Source: Acidobacteriaceae bacterium (lineage in GTDB: Bacteria > Acidobacteriota > Terriglobia > Terriglobales > Acidobacteriaceae). Taken from it: a DNA stretch of 33,899 nt. Where the stretch lies: positions 38,578 to 72,476 of the forward strand of contig PLIO01000130.1 of the NCBI GenBank assembly GCA_003140075.1. The letters run 5' to 3'. The notes beneath the pieces were generated by a model, which was not told the DNA's origin, ran no database searches, and saw only the letters and a program-made list of their open reading frames with translations. Position numbers and translations under genes: made by a program. This document shows, piece after piece, positions 3,137 to 10,193 of the stretch (its first letter is position 1; every line of letters begins with the position of its first letter).

Positions 3137-3333
3137 TCTTCGCTATATCTCCTATGCTATGAACGTGCTTCCGCACTGCCCGGAGGCAACCAACCGGGTT
3201 CGAACGCATTAGTAAAGGCGTGAATTGCCATCCATTTATGTATCAGGAATGCGCAGGAAGAGCAAACGCCCACTAAGAGTCATTGGAACCGTGGAAGCGG
3301 TCGCGAGTTGCCTGAAAGGCAGTGGTCGGTGGG

Positions 3334-3356
3334 CAGTACCTAGTACCCAGTACCGA
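3334..3356. repeat. Short GTACC-containing 7-bp tandem array
   Basis: GTACC recurs at 3336, 3343 and 3350, exactly 7 bp apart (CAGTACCTAGTACCCAG and onward). The same unit forms the left arm of the larger inverted array at 14511-14606. Here I see only one arm, so it is either a fragment or a shorter member of the same class. Confidence 0.6.
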
Positions 3357-3470
3357 GAAAACGCGATGAAGGCCGCAGCCAAGGCGTGTTTACGGAAGCG
3401 GTCGCCGGGCGCGGGTGACCAGAAGCCATCTCGTAGCAAACCCGAAGAAGTACATCGGCGGCTCCCTCAG

Positions 3471-3523
3471 GGGCTAAAGCCCGCGTCCTCATTGGGCCTG
3501 TTCGGCACGACTGAAGTCGTGCC
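3471..3523. repeat. Double-hairpin TGAA-loop element, copy A
   Basis: Hairpin 1 is GGGC-TAAA-GCCC (3471-3482). Hairpin 2 is GGCACGAC-TGAA-GTCGTGCC (3504-3523), an 8-bp perfect stem. They are 21 nt apart, and the spacer contains CCTCATTGGG. The element sits 36 bp beyond the 3' end of the minus-strand sensor kinase gene, where it could act as a transcription terminator or mRNA 3' stabiliser. Copies B (8521-8578) and C (9390-9444) share the layout. Confidence 0.75.
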
Positions 3524-3558
3524 CTTCCCGAAACTATTTATGAGATAGCTTCTAGAAA

Positions 3559-4974
3559 CTAAGCTTCCTGGCCGGCGGGAACAACTTCGAGGGTTTCCTC
3601 CGGGCTGGCGCTCGCCGGCATTAGAGGCAGGCGAATCTCGACCGTGAGGCCGCCGCCGGGCCGGTTCGTGGCGGCGACGCGGCCGCCGTGGAACCGGACT
3701 GCGCGTTCGGTAATAGCCAGCCCCAAGCCAACTCCGCCCGTCTGCCGGCCTCGATCATCGTCCAGACGGTAGAATGGCTGGAACAACTTTTCCAGCGCAT
3801 CGACCGGAACGCCAGACCCGCAATCGCTGACTCGAACCAAGGCTTCGTTTCCACCCGGGCCTTCAGTTTTTTCCAGGCGGATCTCAACGGTCGTACCCTC
3901 GCGGGTGTAACGAATGGCATTGCGCACTACGTTCTCGATGGCACTGTGCAGCAAGGATGCGTCTCCGCGCACTCCCCAACTTCCCGCCGGAATTTCGCTT
4001 TGCACGTGGCAGTGCCGGGCCTGCGCCTCGAACTCCGCATCTTCGGCCACGCTTAGCACTACTTCGTTCAGGGGGATGGGCGTGGGCGGCACGCGCTGCT
4101 CGCCGTCTTCCAGGCGAGCCAAAGTCAGGATGCGGCCGATCAGTTCGTTCAGCCGGCTGGCTTCGAGTTCGATGCGATCGAGCATGGACGCGCTCTCTGG
4201 ATTGGCGCGTTGGCGCGCCAGGCCCAACGCGACATTCAACCGGGCCAAAGGCGAGCGCAGTTCATGGGAAATGTCGTTGAGCAGGCGGGCTTGCGCCTTC
4301 ACCAGGTTTTCCAGGCGTTCCGCCATGCCGTCAAAATCCCGCATCAGCCCTGCCACCTCGTCGCGTCTCCTGACGTTGGGAGCGCCGGCGCGCGCGGCAA
4401 GGTCCCCGGCGGCCAATTGGCGTGTGGCGGCGCGCAGGCGGACGATAGGCATGGTCAGCAGCCAGGCCAGCACGTAGCAAACGAGACCGGAAGAGATAAC
4501 GGCGATGATTAAGCCGGGGAAAGGTAATCCCCGCGGACCCAGAAACAGGCGTGGTCCGGGCGGAGGAGACAGAACCAGCGTGTAACGGTGCAATCCGTCA
4601 GAGGAAGCGCGCGAGTCGCGCAACACCGGAGGAGGCGCGGGAAAAATAAAGCCCTCGTGCGGCACCCGCGGCCCTCCCTTGGCGACGCGTAGCGCCCATT
4701 CTGGCGCGCCGCGGTGCAAAACCTCCTCCATGTTTTCATTGAATAGAAAGACGCGGACGTGTTGCGTCCTCTCCAGATTGTCGAAATACTCGCCAAGCCC
4801 GCTCGCGCCTCTTTGTTCGTAAGCATTCACCGAGTCGTTCATCGCAGTCGCGAGAAGAGCTTCCCAACTGGAGGTCCGCGGACGAAAGGCCAGCGTCACC
4901 AGGATCGCGAGCACCAGAAACAGGGCGAAGGCCATCCAGAAGGAAAGAAAAATCTTGAGGAACAGACTCTTCAT
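3559..4974 (-). CDS. Cpx-like sensor histidine kinase
   Basis: 471 residues. Membrane helix 1 spans about residues 9-30, a periplasmic sensor domain 31-153, helix 2 about 154-176, then a HAMP linker (about 177-228). The HisKA H-box NDISHELRSPLARL places the phospho-acceptor at His237. The ATPase domain has an N-box (Asn348, Asn352), G1 (DCGSG, 384-388) and G2 (GGVGLGLA, 412-420). The architecture and H-box resemble CpxA. Its start overlaps the end of the response-regulator gene by 4 bp (ATGA), so the two are translationally coupled. With the divergent Spy-like gene this looks like an envelope-stress system. The sensed signal cannot be read from the sequence. The symbol is left blank because orthology to E. 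coli cpxA was not tested. Confidence 0.92.
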   Translation of the reverse strand: MKSLFLKIFLSFWMAFALFLVLAILVTLAFRPRTSSWEALLATAMNDSVNAYEQRGASGLGEYFDNLERTQHVRVFLFNENMEEVLHRGAPEWALRVAKGGPRVPHEGFIFPAPPPVLRDSRASSDGLHRYTLVLSPPPGPRLFLGPRGLPFPGLIIAVISSGLVCYVLAWLLTMPIVRLRAATRQLAAGDLAARAGAPNVRRRDEVAGLMRDFDGMAERLENLVKAQARLLNDISHELRSPLARLNVALGLARQRANPESASMLDRIELEASRLNELIGRILTLARLEDGEQRVPPTPIPLNEVVLSVAEDAEFEAQARHCHVQSEIPAGSWGVRGDASLLHSAIENVVRNAIRYTREGTTVEIRLEKTEGPGGNEALVRVSDCGSGVPVDALEKLFQPFYRLDDDRGRQTGGVGLGLAITERAVRFHGGRVAATNRPGGGLTVEIRLPLMPASASPEETLEVVPAGQEA

Positions 4975-5696
4975 GGAGTGCTCTTCACCTTCTCCCGCGG
5001 ACGGGCAAAGATGTAACCGACACCGCGGATGGTCTTGATGTGCTCGTCGCTGTCGGTGTCGCCGAGCTTCTTGCGGACTTTGCTCACGTGCATATCGATG
5101 CTGCGGTCAAAAGGCGAGAACTTGCGGCTGAGCACGGCATTCACCAAACGCTCGCGCGGGACCACGCGTCCGGCTTCACGCAGCAGCACTTCGAGCAAGT
5201 TGAACTCTACTGATGTGAGATCGACCGGCTGGCCATCACGACGCACGCTGCGAGTGGCGGGATCAAGTTCGATTTCCCCTACGCGGACGATATCGGGCGC
5301 CGACGGGATAGACTTGTCGCTCCGGGTGCGGCGCAGAATGGCTCGAATGCGCGCCACCAGTTCTCGCGGATTGAAAGGCTTGGGCAGATAATCGTCGGCG
5401 CCAATCTCCAGACCGACGATGCGGTCCACATCTTCGCCGCGCGCAGTGAGCAAAAGGACAGGCAAGCGCGAGGTCGCGCGGATTCGGCGCAGGACTTCGA
5501 AACCGTTGATGCCGGGCAGCATCACATCCAACACTACAAGCAGGTAACCGCCGCCGGTGGCGCGCTGCAACCCGCTCTCGCCATCGTGGGCCGCTTCCAC
5601 CACGAAACCCTCGGCCTGCAAATATTCGGCGACGAGAGTGCAGAGTTCAACATCGTCGTCGATAACCAGAATTCGTTCCATCTTCGCGGTTTTCAT
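4971..5696 (-). CDS. OmpR/CpxR-type response regulator
   Basis: 241 residues, the usual length for the OmpR/PhoB family. The receiver domain (about 6-122) has the acidic pocket Asp13-15, phospho-acceptor Asp57 (VVLDVMLPG), Thr84 and Lys106 (KPF). The C-terminal winged helix (about 137-235) ends with the family pattern IKTIRGVGYIF. It phosphorylates from the kinase encoded downstream with a 4-bp overlap. Two starts are possible: the ATG at 5696 (MKTAKMER) or the one five codons later; neither has a strong ribosome binding site. The 211-bp region upstream, shared with the divergent Spy-like gene, carries repeats matching the enterobacterial CpxR recognition sequence, which suggests autoregulation plus control of the neighbour. 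Confidence 0.92.
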   Translation of the reverse strand: MKTAKMERILVIDDDVELCTLVAEYLQAEGFVVEAAHDGESGLQRATGGGYLLVVLDVMLPGINGFEVLRRIRATSRLPVLLLTARGEDVDRIVGLEIGADDYLPKPFNPRELVARIRAILRRTRSDKSIPSAPDIVRVGEIELDPATRSVRRDGQPVDLTSVEFNLLEVLLREAGRVVPRERLVNAVLSRKFSPFDRSIDMHVSKVRKKLGDTDSDEHIKTIRGVGYIFARPREKVKSTP

Positions 5697-5722
5697 TGTG
5701 CACCAAGCGGAGGCCGACAGCG

Positions 5723-5737
5723 GTAAAGAATTGTCAA
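5723..5737 (+). promoter_or_regulatory. CpxR-box-like site GTAAA-N5-GTCAA
   Basis: GTAAA (5723-5727), five bases, GTCAA (5733-5737). The E. coli CpxR consensus is two GTAAA half-sites spaced by about five bases, so this is one mismatch away. It lies 26 bp upstream of the response-regulator start codon. The function is inferred from sequence resemblance and location only. Confidence 0.5.
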
Positions 5738-5766
5738 ATCGCCGTATGCTTCCCGATTGACAAAAC

Positions 5767-5792
5767 TTTACTCGCTTTTACGGACTTTTTAC
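5767..5792 (-). promoter_or_regulatory. Triple GTAAA half-site array (CpxR-box-like)
   Basis: On the plus strand TTTAC occurs at 5767-5771, 5777-5781 and 5788-5792, that is GTAAA three times on the minus strand at 10- and 11-bp spacing, one helical turn each. The first two give an exact GTAAA-N5-GTAAA. The array lies between the response-regulator and Spy-like genes, 116 bp upstream of the latter. A plus-strand TTGACA at 5757-5762 overlaps the edge, but I cannot see a good matching -10. Confidence 0.6.
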
Positions 5793-5907
5793 TACTTTTC
5801 CGCAGGAATCGTGTTCCTATGAGGGTACGCAAAAAGGCCCAGGTTCGCGGGACAAGAATAATGTCCAATGTCCACGGTAGGAACGGGTCGTCAAGGAGCA
5901 GAGGGTT

Positions 5908-6396
5908 ATGAAATTACTTCGCTTTCGTTTTCTGGTGGCGGCATTGGCCGTGTTGCTAGGCAGCGCGCTCGCCAAGTCGCAAACCACGGATGCGCCTCCA
6001 CCGATCCGCGGCCATGCCTTCGGCATGGAAGGCCGCATGATGGGCTTCTTCGCCAAGTACCTAGATCTAACCGACACTCAAAAGGCGCAGATGAAGGCGG
6101 TCATGCAGAAAGAGCAGCCCACACTAAAACCGCTGATGCAACAACTGCACCAGATGGATGGGCAACTCAGGCAGTATGAAGAAGGCGCCTACGACGAAAC
6201 CAAGGTGCAACCGCTGGTGGCGCAGCAAGCGCAGACCATGGTGCAACTGAAGGTTGAGCAAACCCGCATTCACAGCGAGCTGTTTCAGTTGCTCACCGCG
6301 GACCAGCAGGCCAAGATGAAGGAATTCGAGGCCAACCGGGAAGCACGCATGCAGCAACATATGCAGAGTGCGCCGCCTGCCAATCCCGAGGAATAG
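5908..6396 (+). CDS. Spy/CpxP-family periplasmic stress protein
   Basis: 162 residues. The N-terminus is a signal peptide (basic start, hydrophobic 9-22). The mature part is helical and charged, with the two LTxxQ motifs that define the Spy/CpxP family: LTDTQ (54-58) and LTADQ (129-133). In enterobacteria such proteins act as periplasmic chaperones or, for CpxP, as inhibitors of the CpxA sensor. Divergent placement from the two-component genes, with CpxR-like sites in between, fits a Cpx-type feedback loop. AAGGAG at 5893-5898 sits 9 nt before the ATG, supporting this start. Whether it is closer to Spy or to CpxP cannot be decided here. Confidence 0.82.
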   Translation: MKLLRFRFLVAALAVLLGSALAKSQTTDAPPPIRGHAFGMEGRMMGFFAKYLDLTDTQKAQMKAVMQKEQPTLKPLMQQLHQMDGQLRQYEEGAYDETKVQPLVAQQAQTMVQLKVEQTRIHSELFQLLTADQQAKMKEFEANREARMQQHMQSAPPANPEE

Positions 6397-6495
6397 CGCG
6401 GCAGGCTTCTGCGTGAACTTGGGTCTAGAACTGCTTTGACCGGCAGCCGCGCGGGCGACGCTCTTGAGCCCGCTTGGCTGCCGAGGAATGACGCG

Positions 6496-6645
6496 ATGGA
6501 TTTGGATCAGGTATTCATTTTTGAAATCGGATGGGCTTTCTTCGCCGCCTGGGGAATAGTTCTTGCGGCGATCAGCGTAGTCGCCTTCGGGCGGGATCTT
6601 CTCCCTGTCATGCGACGCCCAGCCCACGAACGAGAGCGTCGTTAG
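6496..6645 (+). CDS. Small single-span membrane protein (unrecognised)
   Basis: 49 residues starting MDLDQVFIFEIGW. It has one strong hydrophobic helix (about residues 8-30) followed by a basic, arginine-rich tail (MRRPAHERERR), so the tail should face the cytoplasm. GAGGA at 6483-6487 lies 8 nt before the ATG, good support for this start over the longer frame beginning at 6436. It follows the Spy-like gene by 99 bp on the same strand, so it might be part of the same transcript. I do not recognise a family. Confidence 0.5.
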   Translation: MDLDQVFIFEIGWAFFAAWGIVLAAISVVAFGRDLLPVMRRPAHERERR

Positions 6646-6758
6646 ACAGCAAGTTGGCGAATCGCTCGCTCTCTTCGTCTTTCTTGCAAGTTCTTGTCTT
6701 CTCCTTCCGCGCCAAAAACTTGAACCCCGCCTGCTAGAATTCCATCTACACAACCTGC

Positions 6759-8498
6759 ATGATTCCGAAGAGTATGCGTCCGCTTCTTCCCTACCTCAAG
6801 CGCTATCGCTGGGGCTTTGTGGCGGGGACGGTGTGTATTATTTTGAGCAACGGCGCCTGGGCGGGACTGCCCCGGGTGATCGGCAACGCCGCCCAGAGCC
6901 TGGAAGGTAGCGTCACCCCGCACAAGCTCCTTATCTTCGCATTGCAGGTACTCGGCCTCGCGGCCGTGCGGGGGATATTCCTGTTCCTCACACGCTGGGT
7001 TGTGATCGGAATCTCGCGCGATATTGAATTCGATCTGCGCAACGACCTCTTCGCCCACCTGGAAACGCTGTCTTACTCCTATTACCAGCGCACGCGCACC
7101 GGCGACATCATGGCAAGGGTGACAAACGATTTGAATGCGGTGCGCATGCTTCTGGGCCCGGCGATCATGTACTCGGCGAATACGCTGGTGTTCACGAGCG
7201 CGGCGCTGTGGTTCATGATGCGCAACAGCCCCAAGCTGACTTTCTATGCCTTTCTGCCGCTGCCCGTGGTCAGCATTGTCATTCAGTATTTTGGGCGGCG
7301 GATTCATGAGCGCTTCGAGAGAATTCAGGCGATGTTCTCCGATATTTCAGCACGTGCCCAGGAAAATTTTTCCGGAGCGCGCGTGATTCGCGCCTATGTG
7401 CAGGAAGAAGCGGAGATCGCATCTTTCGAAACAGCAAACCAGGAATATGTGGCACGCAGCCTGAAGCTGGTACGGCTGATGGGGATGCTTTGGCCGACGC
7501 TGGAACTGATGCTCGGGCTGGCCCTGGTGCTGGTGTTGTGGATCGGCGGGCGGGAAGTGTTGCGAGGCCACATGCAGATTGGGGCGTTCACGGCCTTCAA
7601 CATTTACATGATGCAGCTTACGTTCCCCATCATCGCGCTGGGTTGGGTGATCAACATTTTCCAGCGGGGCACGGCGTCGCTGGTCCGCCTGAATGAGATT
7701 CTGCAGGAAAAGCCCGAGATCAAAGATGAGGCTAAGGCGCGCGACCGGGAAGTGGAAGGCGAGATCGAGTTCCGCGGACTGAGCTTTGAATACGAGGGCA
7801 AGCGCGTGCTGCACGATCTGAACTTGCGCATTCCGGCGGGCAGCAGCATGGCGATCGTGGGCCCCACGGGCTCGGGAAAGACCACGCTGGTCAATCTCAT
7901 CCCGCGCATTTACGACGCGGAACCGGGCATGGTTCTGGTGGATGGCCGGCCGATCCGCGAGTTTTCTCTGGCTTCGCTGCGCAAGAATGTTGGCTTCGTT
8001 CCGCAGGAGACGTTCCTGTTCAGCGACCGGATTCGGGAGAACATTGCCCTCGGAGTCGAGTCGGCCACGGAGCGGGAGATTCACGACGCGGCAAAGGCTG
8101 CGGATGTCGCCGGCGATATTGAGGGTTTTCCCGAGCAGTATCAGACGATGGTGGGCGAGCGTGGAATCACGTTATCGGGCGGACAGAAGCAGCGGACGGC
8201 TCTGGCTCGCGCGTTGATCCGTAATCCGCGCATCCTCATTCTCGACGATGCGCTCTCCAGTGTGGATACTCACACCGAAGACAAAATCCTGAATCACCTG
8301 CGCGACGTGATGCAGGGCCGTACGACCATCTTCATCTCACACCGTGTTTCCACCGTCCGCAACGCCGACCGCATTGCCGTGCTGCACGATGGACGAATCG
8401 TGGAGTTGGGCACGCATGACGAATTGCTCGCCTTGAACGGCTACTACAGCGACCTGTATAACAAGCAATTGCTGGAAGAGGAACTGGCCGAGGTTTGA
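6759..8498 (+). CDS. MdlA/YheI-like ABC exporter half-transporter
   Basis: 579 residues, a fused permease-ATPase of the type I exporter class. The N-terminal transmembrane domain (about 10-315) has six helices and the typical SYSYYQRTRTGDIMARVTND coupling region. The nucleotide-binding domain follows: Walker A GPTGSGKTT (about 368-376), signature LSGGQKQR (about 472-479), Walker B ILILDDALSSVD (about 492-503) and an H-loop in FISHRVSTV. The residue after the Walker B Asp is Asp rather than the catalytic Glu, as in MdlA/YheI-type members of heterodimeric exporters, but no partner gene lies next to it. The substrate is unknown; lipids or drugs are typical for the family. The ATG at 6759 was chosen as the first in frame, and the permease domain begins right after it. 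Confidence 0.9.
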   Translation: MIPKSMRPLLPYLKRYRWGFVAGTVCIILSNGAWAGLPRVIGNAAQSLEGSVTPHKLLIFALQVLGLAAVRGIFLFLTRWVVIGISRDIEFDLRNDLFAHLETLSYSYYQRTRTGDIMARVTNDLNAVRMLLGPAIMYSANTLVFTSAALWFMMRNSPKLTFYAFLPLPVVSIVIQYFGRRIHERFERIQAMFSDISARAQENFSGARVIRAYVQEEAEIASFETANQEYVARSLKLVRLMGMLWPTLELMLGLALVLVLWIGGREVLRGHMQIGAFTAFNIYMMQLTFPIIALGWVINIFQRGTASLVRLNEILQEKPEIKDEAKARDREVEGEIEFRGLSFEYEGKRVLHDLNLRIPAGSSMAIVGPTGSGKTTLVNLIPRIYDAEPGMVLVDGRPIREFSLASLRKNVGFVPQETFLFSDRIRENIALGVESATEREIHDAAKAADVAGDIEGFPEQYQTMVGERGITLSGGQKQRTALARALIRNPRILILDDALSSVDTHTEDKILNHLRDVMQGRTTIFISHRVSTVRNADRIAVLHDGRIVELGTHDELLALNGYYSDLYNKQLLEEELAEV

Positions 8499-8520
8499 AG
8501 CTGGGTCGCGGCTGCGGCCT

Positions 8521-8578
8521 CAGCGGCTGAAGCCGCTGTTGATTCGATTGGGCGCTTGCGGCGCGACTGAAAGTCGCG
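8521..8578. repeat. Double-hairpin TGAA-loop element, copy B
   Basis: Hairpin 1 is CAGCGGC-TGAA-GCCGCTG (8521-8538). Hairpin 2 is CGCGAC-TGAAA-GTCGCG (8562-8578). They are 23 nt apart, with a spacer containing CGATTGGGC that resembles copy A. It starts 22 bp after the ABC exporter stop codon, a terminator-like position. Confidence 0.75.
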
Positions 8579-8673
8579 TCCTTTCAAAGCAGCCGCGAAT
8601 TGAGTTTTTCCGCAGTCTCTAAAGTCGAGCCTTTCCAGATCCTAGATGAGCGGCCGAAATTCTCTACGAACCC

Positions 8674-9381
8674 ATGCAAAGAATCGACGCACCTGAGATT
8701 CTCGATTCCGACGCTTGTTCTCCCGCCGATGTCGAGACCTCGATGCGCGATATTGGCCGCGTCAACCGCTGGTTTGGCGGAGTTGCCACCACGCGGAAGA
8801 TGGTGGAGCGTGTGGCTCAGGCCAGCGGGACGAAACACCTCACACTGCTGGAAGTGGCAGGCGGTTCTGGAGAAGTACCGGAGATGGTTCAGCAGAACCT
8901 CGCGCGACGCGGGATCACGCTGGAGGTGACGTTGCTGGACAGGGCGCAGACTCACCTTCCTAGGAAAAATGCTGCCGAGGGAAATCATAATGGTCGGAAT
9001 CACTCCGTCGTGGCGGATGCGTTTGCTCTGCCTTTCGGCGACGGAGCATTCGATCTGGTGAGTTGCTGCCTTTTTGCGCATCATCTGAGTCCGCAGCAAC
9101 TGGCACAGTTTGTGCGCGAGGGTCTGCGGGTGAGCCGGCGAGCGCTGCTGATCAATGACCTCGTCAGGCATCCTTTACATTTGGCGTTGGCGTTTGCGGG
9201 ATTTCCCCTCATGCGCAGCCGCGTGGCCTGGCTGGACGGGCTCACTTCGGTGCGCCGGGCGTATGTTCCGGCGGAGATTCGGAGCATGATCGCGTCCGCT
9301 TTTTCCCAAGCGACGGCGCGGGTTGAGATTTCGCGCAGTTATCTTTTCCGCATGGGTGCGATTGTATGGAAGTCTGGCTGA
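8674..9381 (+). CDS. Class I SAM-dependent methyltransferase
   Basis: 235 residues. A Rossmann-type SAM site is visible: motif I LLEVAGGSGEVPEM (about 58-71), an acidic strand end LLDRAQ, and the motif VVADAFALPFGDGAFDLV with a post-motif SCCLFAHHLSP typical of UbiE-like enzymes. The C-terminal part carries hydrophobic segments (HLALAFAGFPLM) and looks membrane-proximal. The substrate is unknown. The ATG at 8674 has no clear ribosome binding site, and a start at 8740 (MRDIGRV) is an alternative. It converges with another methyltransferase gene; the hairpin element C separates them. Confidence 0.8.
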   Translation: MQRIDAPEILDSDACSPADVETSMRDIGRVNRWFGGVATTRKMVERVAQASGTKHLTLLEVAGGSGEVPEMVQQNLARRGITLEVTLLDRAQTHLPRKNAAEGNHNGRNHSVVADAFALPFGDGAFDLVSCCLFAHHLSPQQLAQFVREGLRVSRRALLINDLVRHPLHLALAFAGFPLMRSRVAWLDGLTSVRRAYVPAEIRSMIASAFSQATARVEISRSYLFRMGAIVWKSG

Positions 9382-9389
9382 GTCCCGCA

Positions 9390-9444
9390 GCGCCTGAAGG
9401 CGCACCTCATTCTGCGGCTCTTACGGTATGCCTGAAGGCATACC
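9390..9444. repeat. Double-hairpin TGAA-loop element, copy C
   Basis: Hairpin 1 is GCGCC-TGAA-GGCGC (9390-9403). Hairpin 2 is GGTATGCC-TGAA-GGCATACC (9425-9444), 8 bp perfect. The gap is 21 nt and includes CCTCATT, shared with copy A. It fills the 95-bp space between two convergent genes, so it could terminate both. The stem sequences differ completely from copies A and B while pairing is preserved. Confidence 0.75.
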
Positions 9445-9476
9445 CTGATACGAATCTTCCGCTCGCACCGGCTTGC

Positions 9477-10193
9477 CTAGCGCACCACCAGCACTTCGCG
9501 GATGTTGTCGCGGGCGAGAAAGAACTTGATGGAAGCGAAATCACGGAAAAGATTTTCGATGTGGCGGTTGTTGAACACGCGCTGCAACTGAAAGCCATCC
9601 GAGATGGCGGTGTGCACCGCGCCGGTGGGACCGCGGCGGGCTTCGCGGCGCAGCACAATTTTCTGCATCTCCAGAGTATCGGCGCCGACGATGTGGAACC
9701 GGTGACAGGGCGAGTCTGGACCGGCATCGCGGGTATGAAAGAAAGCCAGAAGCATGCCACCCGGTTTCAACACCGACCAGAGCCGTCCCACGACCGGCTT
9801 CACCAGGCTCTCATCGAGATAGTCCGGCAGATTCCAGCACAGCACGAAATCAAAGTGAGCCGCCGGGTAGACCAGGTTATCGGCGAGAAACTTTCGGCTG
9901 TCCAGAGCGACAATTCCATGCTCGTCTTTGGTAAGAAGCTCGGGATCGGTGGAAGCGGTGAGCAGATCTTCGCTGTAGATTCTGTGGCCGTGTTCGGTGA
10001 AGTGGCGAATGTTAGTCGGAGAGGTCGATCCCAGGTCGAGGATGCAAAGGCCTTCGGCGGACTCCCAGCTGCGAGATAACTCTCCCAGCCCGCTGGAGCG
10101 GCGGGTGAGCTTCTGCGAACCCTGCGCCGGAATGGTCTCCGCTCCGGATGAACCGCGAAAAAGTTTCATGAAAGTCTGCGAAACTGACGACAT
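9477..10193 (-). CDS. Class I SAM-dependent methyltransferase (second family)
   Basis: 238 residues, with no close similarity by eye to the neighbouring methyltransferase. After a 45-residue N-terminal extension comes motif I CILDLGSTSPTNIRHF, then YSEDLL (acidic strand 2), FDFVLCWNLPDYLDE (motif II region) and LKPGGMLLAFFHT (motif III). This order is typical of class I SAM methyltransferases; the substrate is not predictable. An 8-bp direct repeat (GTCAGGAT) covers the start codon region, and its first copy supplies an AGGA 7 nt before the ATG. It converges with the upstream methyltransferase and follows the bactofilin gene on the same strand by 36 bp, so the two may be cotranscribed. Confidence 0.75.
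   Translation of the reverse strand: MSSVSQTFMKLFRGSSGAETIPAQGSQKLTRRSSGLGELSRSWESAEGLCILDLGSTSPTNIRHFTEHGHRIYSEDLLTASTDPELLTKDEHGIVALDSRKFLADNLVYPAAHFDFVLCWNLPDYLDESLVKPVVGRLWSVLKPGGMLLAFFHTRDAGPDSPCHRFHIVGADTLEMQKIVLRREARRGPTGAVHTAISDGFQLQRVFNNRHIENLFRDFASIKFFLARDNIREVLVVR

Follow-up and report, generated by a model that had tools for sequence, protein, structure and literature searches.

Introduction

Short palindromic repeats that flank a gene for a REP-associated tyrosine transposase (RAYT; REP, repetitive extragenic palindrome) as inverted copies, an arrangement known as a REPtron, are the closest described counterparts of the element reported here. This element consists of two small hairpins in direct order and is present three times in a 33,899-nucleotide stretch of an Acidobacteriaceae bacterium genome (GenBank assembly GCA_003140075.1, contig PLIO01000130.1, positions 38,578 to 72,476; the whole stretch is referred to as the window). 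We consider, with a probability of about 0.88, that each copy is a non-autonomous REP-like element corresponding to one end of an acidobacterial REPtron, in which a RAYT gene lies between inverted copies. The family is of a known kind, since acidobacterial TIRYT genes with double palindromic repeats have been published (PMC3733652). It is unusual in its direct two-hairpin ends, in feet that differ between clades and in a strand orientation that follows a mosaic of GC skew.

The group 3 (subclass 2.5) REPtrons of Stenotrophomonas and Marinomonas resemble this family in their hairpin-flanked RAYT, many solo copies and short perfect stem. The RAYT proteins here carry mostly PDHxH, WQ and YIxxNP, compared with the published DH[LF]H, WQ and YI[VI]ANP (PMC6006769). 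In contrast to that group, each end here comprises two hairpins in direct order, and the GT[AG]G foot that marks most REP families published so far is restricted to 11 of 81 copies. According to PMC8266576, the Marinomonas group 3 TnpAREP selects its TTTA loop at T12, T13 and A15 while position 14 is free; stem mismatches strongly reduce cleavage, whereas a whole-stem complement swap does so only moderately. Loop bases and an unbroken stem are needed, most complementary stem swaps are tolerated partly or fully, and altering the GTAG foot moves the cleavage site predictably.

TIRYT genes (Di Nocera et al. 2013), which we compare by description only, share acidobacterial hosts and double palindromic terminal inverted repeats (TIRs) with our family. 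They include an acidobacterial group from T. saanensis, K. versatilis, A. capsulatum and G. mallensis, and in K. versatilis one of the TIRs forms a repeated family (PMC3733652); 20 of 26 TIRYT examples fall in subclass 2.1 with a C-terminal helix–turn–helix (PMC6006769). Class 3 TnpAY1 proteins are also found in Acidobacteria, are RAYT-like and are accompanied by many genomic hairpins, about 600 structures in Solibacter, but have NHVH and YV..EQ motifs and a CnGA foot as against mostly PDHxH and YIxxNP here (PMC6006769). Inverted pairs, as in REPINs and BIMEs, occur in the present family too (for example G000:C183, 3195–3266 minus and 3281–3351 plus, where G000 is the genome of the window), but the usual solo unit has its two hairpins in direct rather than inverted order and so is not a REPIN. 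The accessible part of PMC3174227 mentions many short repeats, for Solibacter only. Among the literature titles and abstract openings surveyed, we found no description of a bipartite family with TGAA loops, and no match for the direct two-hairpin end with its near-constant loop, the correspondence of foot and clade, the class-wide scale or the skew-following polarity.

RAYT genes lie between inverted copies of the element

A 266-kb sample of the same genome revealed further copies with a common layout: a foot, usually CCTCA, followed by hairpin 1, a spacer of about 21 nt, hairpin 2, mostly of 8 bp, and a tail. In 81 copies of the genome (alignment A4; source regions partly chosen for containing copies), the spacer has a median length of 21 nt (5–95% range 18–23). 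A covariance model, R1, was built from 15 aligned copies (alignment A3) that were picked for near-perfect stems, which tilts the pair counts towards pairing.

The initial annotation had named a REP-associated transposase as the gene to look for beside these repeats, and one is indeed present. A search of the genome for Y1 transposases yielded four genes, one of which, a RAYT gene (locus L031 on contig G000:C174), lies between two inverted R1 copies. Beyond this genome, 23 acidobacterial RAYT loci (L103–L125; taxa including Acidobacteriaceae, Granulicella and Candidatus Sulfotelmatobacter) were found by protein similarity alone, not by the element. In each of the 23, inverted copies lie no more than 160 nt from the matched gene segment, flanking it on both sides in 19 loci and on one side in four. 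Together with 14 loci from the genus, four of which (L273–L276) were chosen because the element had already been seen nearby, and the gene at L031, this gives 38 RAYT-clade loci, 34 with inverted copies on both sides and four with a copy on one side. Y1 genes of other clades in the same genomes have no element within 160 nt (0 of 8, two having copies further off), the strongest Y1 matches in relatives (L074–L102, mostly of other clades) have an element match at E ≤ 0.1 at six of 29 loci, and the other 57 loci of the similarity list (L126–L182, mostly Pseudomonas) gave four weak matches in three loci, none above 18.6 bits. All five proteins submitted passed the cut-off of NCBIfam NF047646 (‘REP-associated tyrosine transposase’), and one RAYT protein searched against the Protein Data Bank (PDB) matched 4er8, named TnpArep, which we take to be the E. 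coli protein. Inverted flanking copies and RAYT identity, two hallmarks of a REPtron, are joined by a third, a high extragenic copy number.

The genome holds at least 144 R1 matches at E ≤ 0.1, at least 137 of them with E < 0.001, as a lower bound from the best 150 of 2970 candidates scored. The family is abundant across the genus, with matches in 25 of 25 genomes searched (this one included) and from 25 to at least 123 per genome. The sister family is nearly devoid of it (0 to 3 matches per genome in 14 genomes), while of two more distant families, represented by one genome each, one had 95 matches and the other none. A strict scan for two hairpins returned only seven pairs (one turned up in two loci that overlap), because hairpin 1 often has only 4 bp.

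At several RAYT genes (L105, L109, L114, L274, L276 and similar), the downstream end has its hairpin 1 within the reading frame, where it encodes PQGLKP or similar, or a PSAAKAA-like peptide in the TTCCC clade; in the PQGLKP frame, a change between the TAAA and TGAA loops leaves the encoded Leu unaltered. Regularly spaced copies also form BIME-like arrays, in some cases next to RAYT genes (L104, L113 and, in the complete genome G270, C1 3155307–3155780 and 1899872–1901626).

Tail types follow the RAYT tree

Most RAYT genes have the same, or almost the same, tail after hairpin 2 at their two ends, and these tails define the types GATAC, TTTCA, TTCCC, CACCC and CTTCCAC. In a quick tree of 47 proteins (L280, with tail CTTCA, grouped with TTTCA; L103, L109 and L281 gave no usable frame), four of the five types form clades with SH-aLRT support of 99. 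A partly unresolved fork (88) unites the five CACCC rows with L119, which has another tail, and with L111, which carried no tail label on the tree and near which copies mostly read CTCCACCC. The 26 rows of the five types require four tail changes, against a mean of 15.1 and a minimum of 10 in 2000 shufflings, in a count made without nine RAYT-group rows with single or unlabelled tails; eight further tree rows have tails of their own. Each copy in the window matches a different RAYT-end type. We infer that the family has been mobilized, now or formerly, by this acidobacterial RAYT clade. Among the 81 copies from the genome itself, the tails, read directly after hairpin 2, were CTTCC (26), CTTTC (21), CTGAT (9), CCACC (9) and others (16).

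The three copies in the window

Direct reading and a script both recovered the three bipartite copies that had been reported, each with two hairpins 21–23 nt apart and with loops TGAA, TAAA or TGAAA; the script required stems of at least 5 bp, and hairpin 1 of copy 1, with its 4 bp, was recognized by eye. All three lie on the plus strand and are among the 15 rows of R1. Copy 1 (3463..3532; 80.6 bits), of TTCCC type, has a CCCTCA foot, hairpin 1 at 3471..3482 (GGGC-TAAA-GCCC, 4 bp), a 21-nt spacer, hairpin 2 at 3504..3523 (GGCACGAC-TGAA-GTCGTGCC, 8 bp) and the tail CTTCCCGAA. The exact 20-mer of its hairpin 2 occurs six times in the genome, and its tail type is found at the ends of the RAYT genes L273, L275, L278 and L287, several with the same hairpin-2 stem. 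Copy 2 (8516..8589; 66.4 bits), of TTTCA type, comprises hairpin 1 at 8521..8538 (CAGCGGC-TGAA-GCCGCTG, 7 bp) and, 23 nt further on, hairpin 2 at 8562..8578 (CGCGAC-TGAAA-GTCGCG, 6 bp, perfect); RAYT ends of this type are those of L117, L274, L276 and L282, plus L280 with CTTCA. Copy 3 (9383..9453; 69.9 bits), of GATAC type, has hairpin 1 at 9390..9403 (GCGCC-TGAA-GGCGC, 5 bp) and, after 21 nt, hairpin 2 at 9425..9444 (GGTATGCC-TGAA-GGCATACC, 8 bp). Its hairpin-2 stem and tail are those found beside the RAYT gene of the same genome (L031, 2934–3004).

Other parts of the original description needed revision. The copies had all been placed just after stop codons: copies 2 and 3 do start 17 and 1 nt, respectively, after the stops of plus-strand genes, whereas copy 1 starts 26 nt past the stop of a minus-strand gene (3559–4974) and is antisense to it. 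The stems, said to differ entirely, come from a limited set, GGCACGAC/GTCGTGCC alone accounting for nine of the 81 copies; and the spacer sequence, thought to be kept, is not conserved across the 15-copy alignment; the spacer length is conserved, as the 81 copies show. Six hairpins in the window combine a tetraloop with a perfect stem of 7 bp or more, three of them with a TGAA loop. Copy 2 is contained in a unit of about 125 nt (8517–8641) that recurs elsewhere in the genome at 83–89% identity and whose 3' part (GAGTTTTTCCGCAG...AAGTCG...CCTTTCC) resembles a second, internally deleted element.

Loop, foot and a possible mode of recognition

Of the 81 copies, 59 have a hairpin-1 loop and 68 a hairpin-2 loop of the form T(G/A)(G)AA(A). 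The commonest, TGAA and TAAA, read TTCA and TTTA when reverse-complemented (57/81 for hairpin 1 and 51/81 for hairpin 2), while hairpin 2 also has loops one base longer (TGGAA and TGAAA, eight each). TTCA and TTTA both fit the TTNA loop rule of the Marinomonas group 3 TnpAREP and differ exactly at the free position 14. On the TTCA strand, GT[AG]G is found within 2 nt of hairpin 2 in all nine CACCC copies and in both copies of a minor CTACC type; on the TGAA strand, it precedes neither hairpin in any of the 81 copies. The bound strand is probably the TTCA/TTTA strand, on which the loops fit TTNA and the foot of the CACCC type reads GTGG. The other main types abut hairpin 2 with GAAG, AAAG or TCAG on this strand, which suggests that the foot has been replaced in these clades; the foot that marks the GTAG superfamily is absent from the tail types of the three window copies.

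If the Marinomonas recognition rules apply by analogy to Acidobacteria, constant loops and free but paired stems would be expected, because the RAYT needs the loop bases and an unbroken stem. A RAYT, as an HUH nuclease of the Y1 kind acting on single-strand DNA, would bind the folded strand through the near-constant loop and a few bases abutting hairpin 2. The stem would be needed mainly as a paired structure, so that paired changes could accumulate in it with loop and foot preserved, and copies would be inserted on one strand in gaps away from promoters. A fuller proposal, which we put forward only tentatively and regard as doubtful, is that these RAYTs read a fixed loop and a clade-swapped foot (GTGG, GAAG, AAAG or TCAG) that re-aims cleavage, and that one-strand copies record the past polarity of blocks that have since flipped. 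The elements would then mark replication polarity along a chromosome that has been scrambled. With loop near-constant, stem free and foot variable, the natural cognate pairs of RAYT and element make DNA reading testable protein by protein.

Turnover at orthologous sites

Sites of the window copies were compared in 20 relatives. Both anchors of the copy 1 site were present in 14, none of which has copy 1's element, while G044 has a CACCC-type copy in the opposite direction. For copy 2, the anchors were found in all 20, and a related copy only in G015 (G042 has a 3' half beside masked bases); for copy 3, again with 20 of 20 anchors, G024 has an orthologue and G044 a copy of a different type. Another gap lies between two genes that we take, from their motifs, to be hemY and hemE. 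In this hemE–hemY-like gap of 24 loci, including that of the window, the genome of the window and G015 share one type, G020, G017, G004 and G007 have another, G006 has a decayed copy and 17 have none. Past the hemY-like gene, the genome of the window has a TTTCA copy, G042 and G018 have CACCC copies and G045 and G024 have TTCCC copies. As different types occur in the same gaps across species, these gaps have been used repeatedly.

Several points weigh against a RAYT-mobilized REP-like family. The RAYT gene at L031 (2434–2928) is interrupted by an in-frame TAG and is possibly inactive, although intact relatives exist. The other three Y1 gene regions of the genome (L032–L034) have no R1 match, and RAYTs cognate to the copy 1 and copy 2 types were not seen among its Y1 genes, in what is a 276-contig draft; the RAYT profile A5 has two matches in it. 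Six of the 38 RAYT loci also have, in the same flanking positions, a copy in the opposite orientation. A GT[AG]G foot is missing from three of the four main tail types. Of 250 genomes drawn across the class, counted without regard to shared ancestry and with at most 20 element matches recorded per genome, all 68 with a strong RAYT match (A5, E ≤ 1e-35) have the element (R1, E ≤ 1e-5), which speaks for the link, but so do 85 of the 182 without one (48 of 67 with a weak RAYT match and 37 of 115 with none). The empty-site comparison gave no insertion with a resolvable empty target, the flanks being too diverged; movement would thus be read from presence, absence and copy number, and some absences may be losses.

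Stem mismatches point to a DNA hairpin

Across the 81 copies, 92.5% of pair cells hold standard pairs, compared with 71.4% after shuffling, and 194 cells have changed on both sides, compared with 61. In hairpin 2, 580 of 618 lettered cells are Watson–Crick, 13 are G.T/T.G and 13 are A.C/C.A. Selected RNA pairing would tolerate G.U above A.C, so this equality favours a DNA hairpin. In hairpin 1, the balance tips towards G.T (14 G.T/T.G versus 9 A.C/C.A), a further point against; the outermost pair, often left unpaired (24 copies have G-G there), accounts for 11 of the 14 G.T cells. Overall, the hairpin-2 mismatches and the mostly antisense orientation in co-directional gaps point to a DNA rather than an RNA hairpin, and a constant loop on stems that vary yet still pair points to its recognition as folded single-stranded DNA. 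The initial annotation had left open whether selection on structure or a REP-like family with an odd mode of spread was responsible: the link to RAYT genes supports the second, and selection on structure is plausible at the level of DNA, but not in the form of an RNA terminator.

Pairing might instead be kept mainly by palindrome correction at the DNA level, through template switching or conversion within the hairpin, rather than by RAYT selection; the element would still be REP-like. Such correction would leave mainly two-sided changes, as hairpin 2 shows (146 standard cells changed on both sides, 11 on one), and between copy 3 and its orthologue in G024 one two-sided and one one-sided change are seen. 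Yet orthologous copies are few, transposition gives copies a shared ancestry, so that these counts are not independent events, and selection on active RAYT ends would yield the same pattern. We consider this explanation unlikely and prefer pairing maintained through recognition by the RAYT. Either way, an intergenic repeat with strongly covarying stems is not necessarily an RNA, and comparing G.T with A.C mismatches and noting orientation to genes are simple checks that distinguish RNA from DNA.

Gene context and strand polarity

Gene positions were taken from a home-made codon-usage gene finder and 71 of the 81 copies were used, the 10 weakest being dropped. Four lie at locus edges and seven overlap predicted genes, leaving 60 of 67 classified copies intergenic, where 77% of random places fall in genes. 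These 60 divide into 40 in co-directional, 15 in convergent and five in divergent gaps (expected 55, 19 and 26%), and those in co-directional gaps are mostly antisense (32, with eight sense). The complete genome G270 gave a similar picture, with 36 co-directional, 19 convergent and six divergent copies and one in a gene (62 in all); counted once per gap, 25 of its co-directional copies are antisense and nine sense. The bias to gene ends put forward initially thus appears as a strongly intergenic position with avoidance of divergent gaps.

Regional GC skew is a stronger predictor of element strand than gene direction. In the genome of the window, the strand of 53 of 64 copies agrees with the GC skew at 4-fold sites in the surrounding 6 kb, rising to 44 of 48 where |skew| > 0.15; in G270, 50 of 61 follow the skew of their own 20-kb region. 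The skew is called regional because plus- and minus-strand genes of a region agree in it (r 0.93 in G270 and 0.86 in the genome of the window). Direction of the neighbouring gene was rejected as the main cause, as in the genome of the window the scorable sense copies of co-directional gaps follow the skew in 7 of 7 cases and the antisense ones in 24 of 30. Orientation by replichore was not supported in G270, whose dnaA domain is at 1.1 kb: the counts were 25/23 versus 38/27 (p 0.57) for 113 of the 133 matches listed and 27/34 versus 38/34 (p 0.39) for all 133. The 20 left out of the first test comprise 11 in the array round the RAYT gene at 1.900 Mb (five above 50 bits), seven in the array at 3.155 Mb and two beside listed copies.

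IS200/IS605 elements show strand-biased insertion. By analogy, such insertion, combined with inversions whose replication skew fades slowly, would explain the polarity. The skew asymmetry is specific to lineages, as flipped blocks would make it. Because element strand and skew are linked, they offer a way into strand-biased transposition and genome rearrangement in Acidobacteria.

The skew itself is pronounced, reaching 0.6 at 4-fold sites and alternating in sign at less than 100 kb on a chromosome with one main dnaA (G270, L305–L344; L233–L252 in the genome of the window). Regions of G270 chosen for the element have a higher absolute skew than 20 ‘even’ comparison regions placed away from them (0.33 versus 0.17). 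At 4-fold sites, the strand rich in G is rich in A as well (rho −0.70), which disfavours C deamination as the source of the skew. For the hemE–hemY-like pair (L345–L372), coding-strand 4-fold GC skew varies among species of the genus between about −0.6 and +0.28.

Polarity of this kind, strongest where the skew is high, could also arise if the copies had been co-opted and kept as host sites, such as nucleoid, gyrase or replication-polar signals, and REPs are binding sites in other bacteria (PMC2817692). Strand-biased insertion would give the same polarity, though, and retention at orthologous sites is not seen in most relatives examined, which makes a kept host site decidedly improbable beside RAYT-driven insertion. 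Least probable of all is a structured RNA at mRNA 3' ends (a terminator, attenuator or stabilizer) under base-pairing selection: strong stem covariation and the avoidance of divergent gaps (5/60 here, 6/61 in G270) would suit it, but G.T does not exceed A.C in hairpin 2, copies in co-directional gaps are antisense (32/40, and 25/34 in G270), the element is missing from most orthologous sites examined, Rfam 15 gave no match at gathering score in the window and none overlapping the elements at E ≤ 5 in 3400–9500, and none of the three copies is terminator-like (a terminator scan of 3300–9600 had four hits, none of them an element, and no hairpin with a T run was found at the three copies).

Other repeats at the same sites

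A second repeat lies near copy 1, at 3319–3357 of the window (CAGTGGTCAGTGG / CCACTGACCACTG, AGTACCCAGTACC), and in relatives occupies the same gap (several of L253–L259). The hemE–hemY-like gap is occupied in other species by an GGGCTTCGGGCTTTCGG repeat. In one copy of G045 (L349, 2923–3029) and three of the 81 aligned copies, an insert of about 35 nt (CCTTCGG...GCTTCGCT...CTCAGGGCAGG) is found at the hairpin-2 loop, as if another repeat had landed in hairpin 2.

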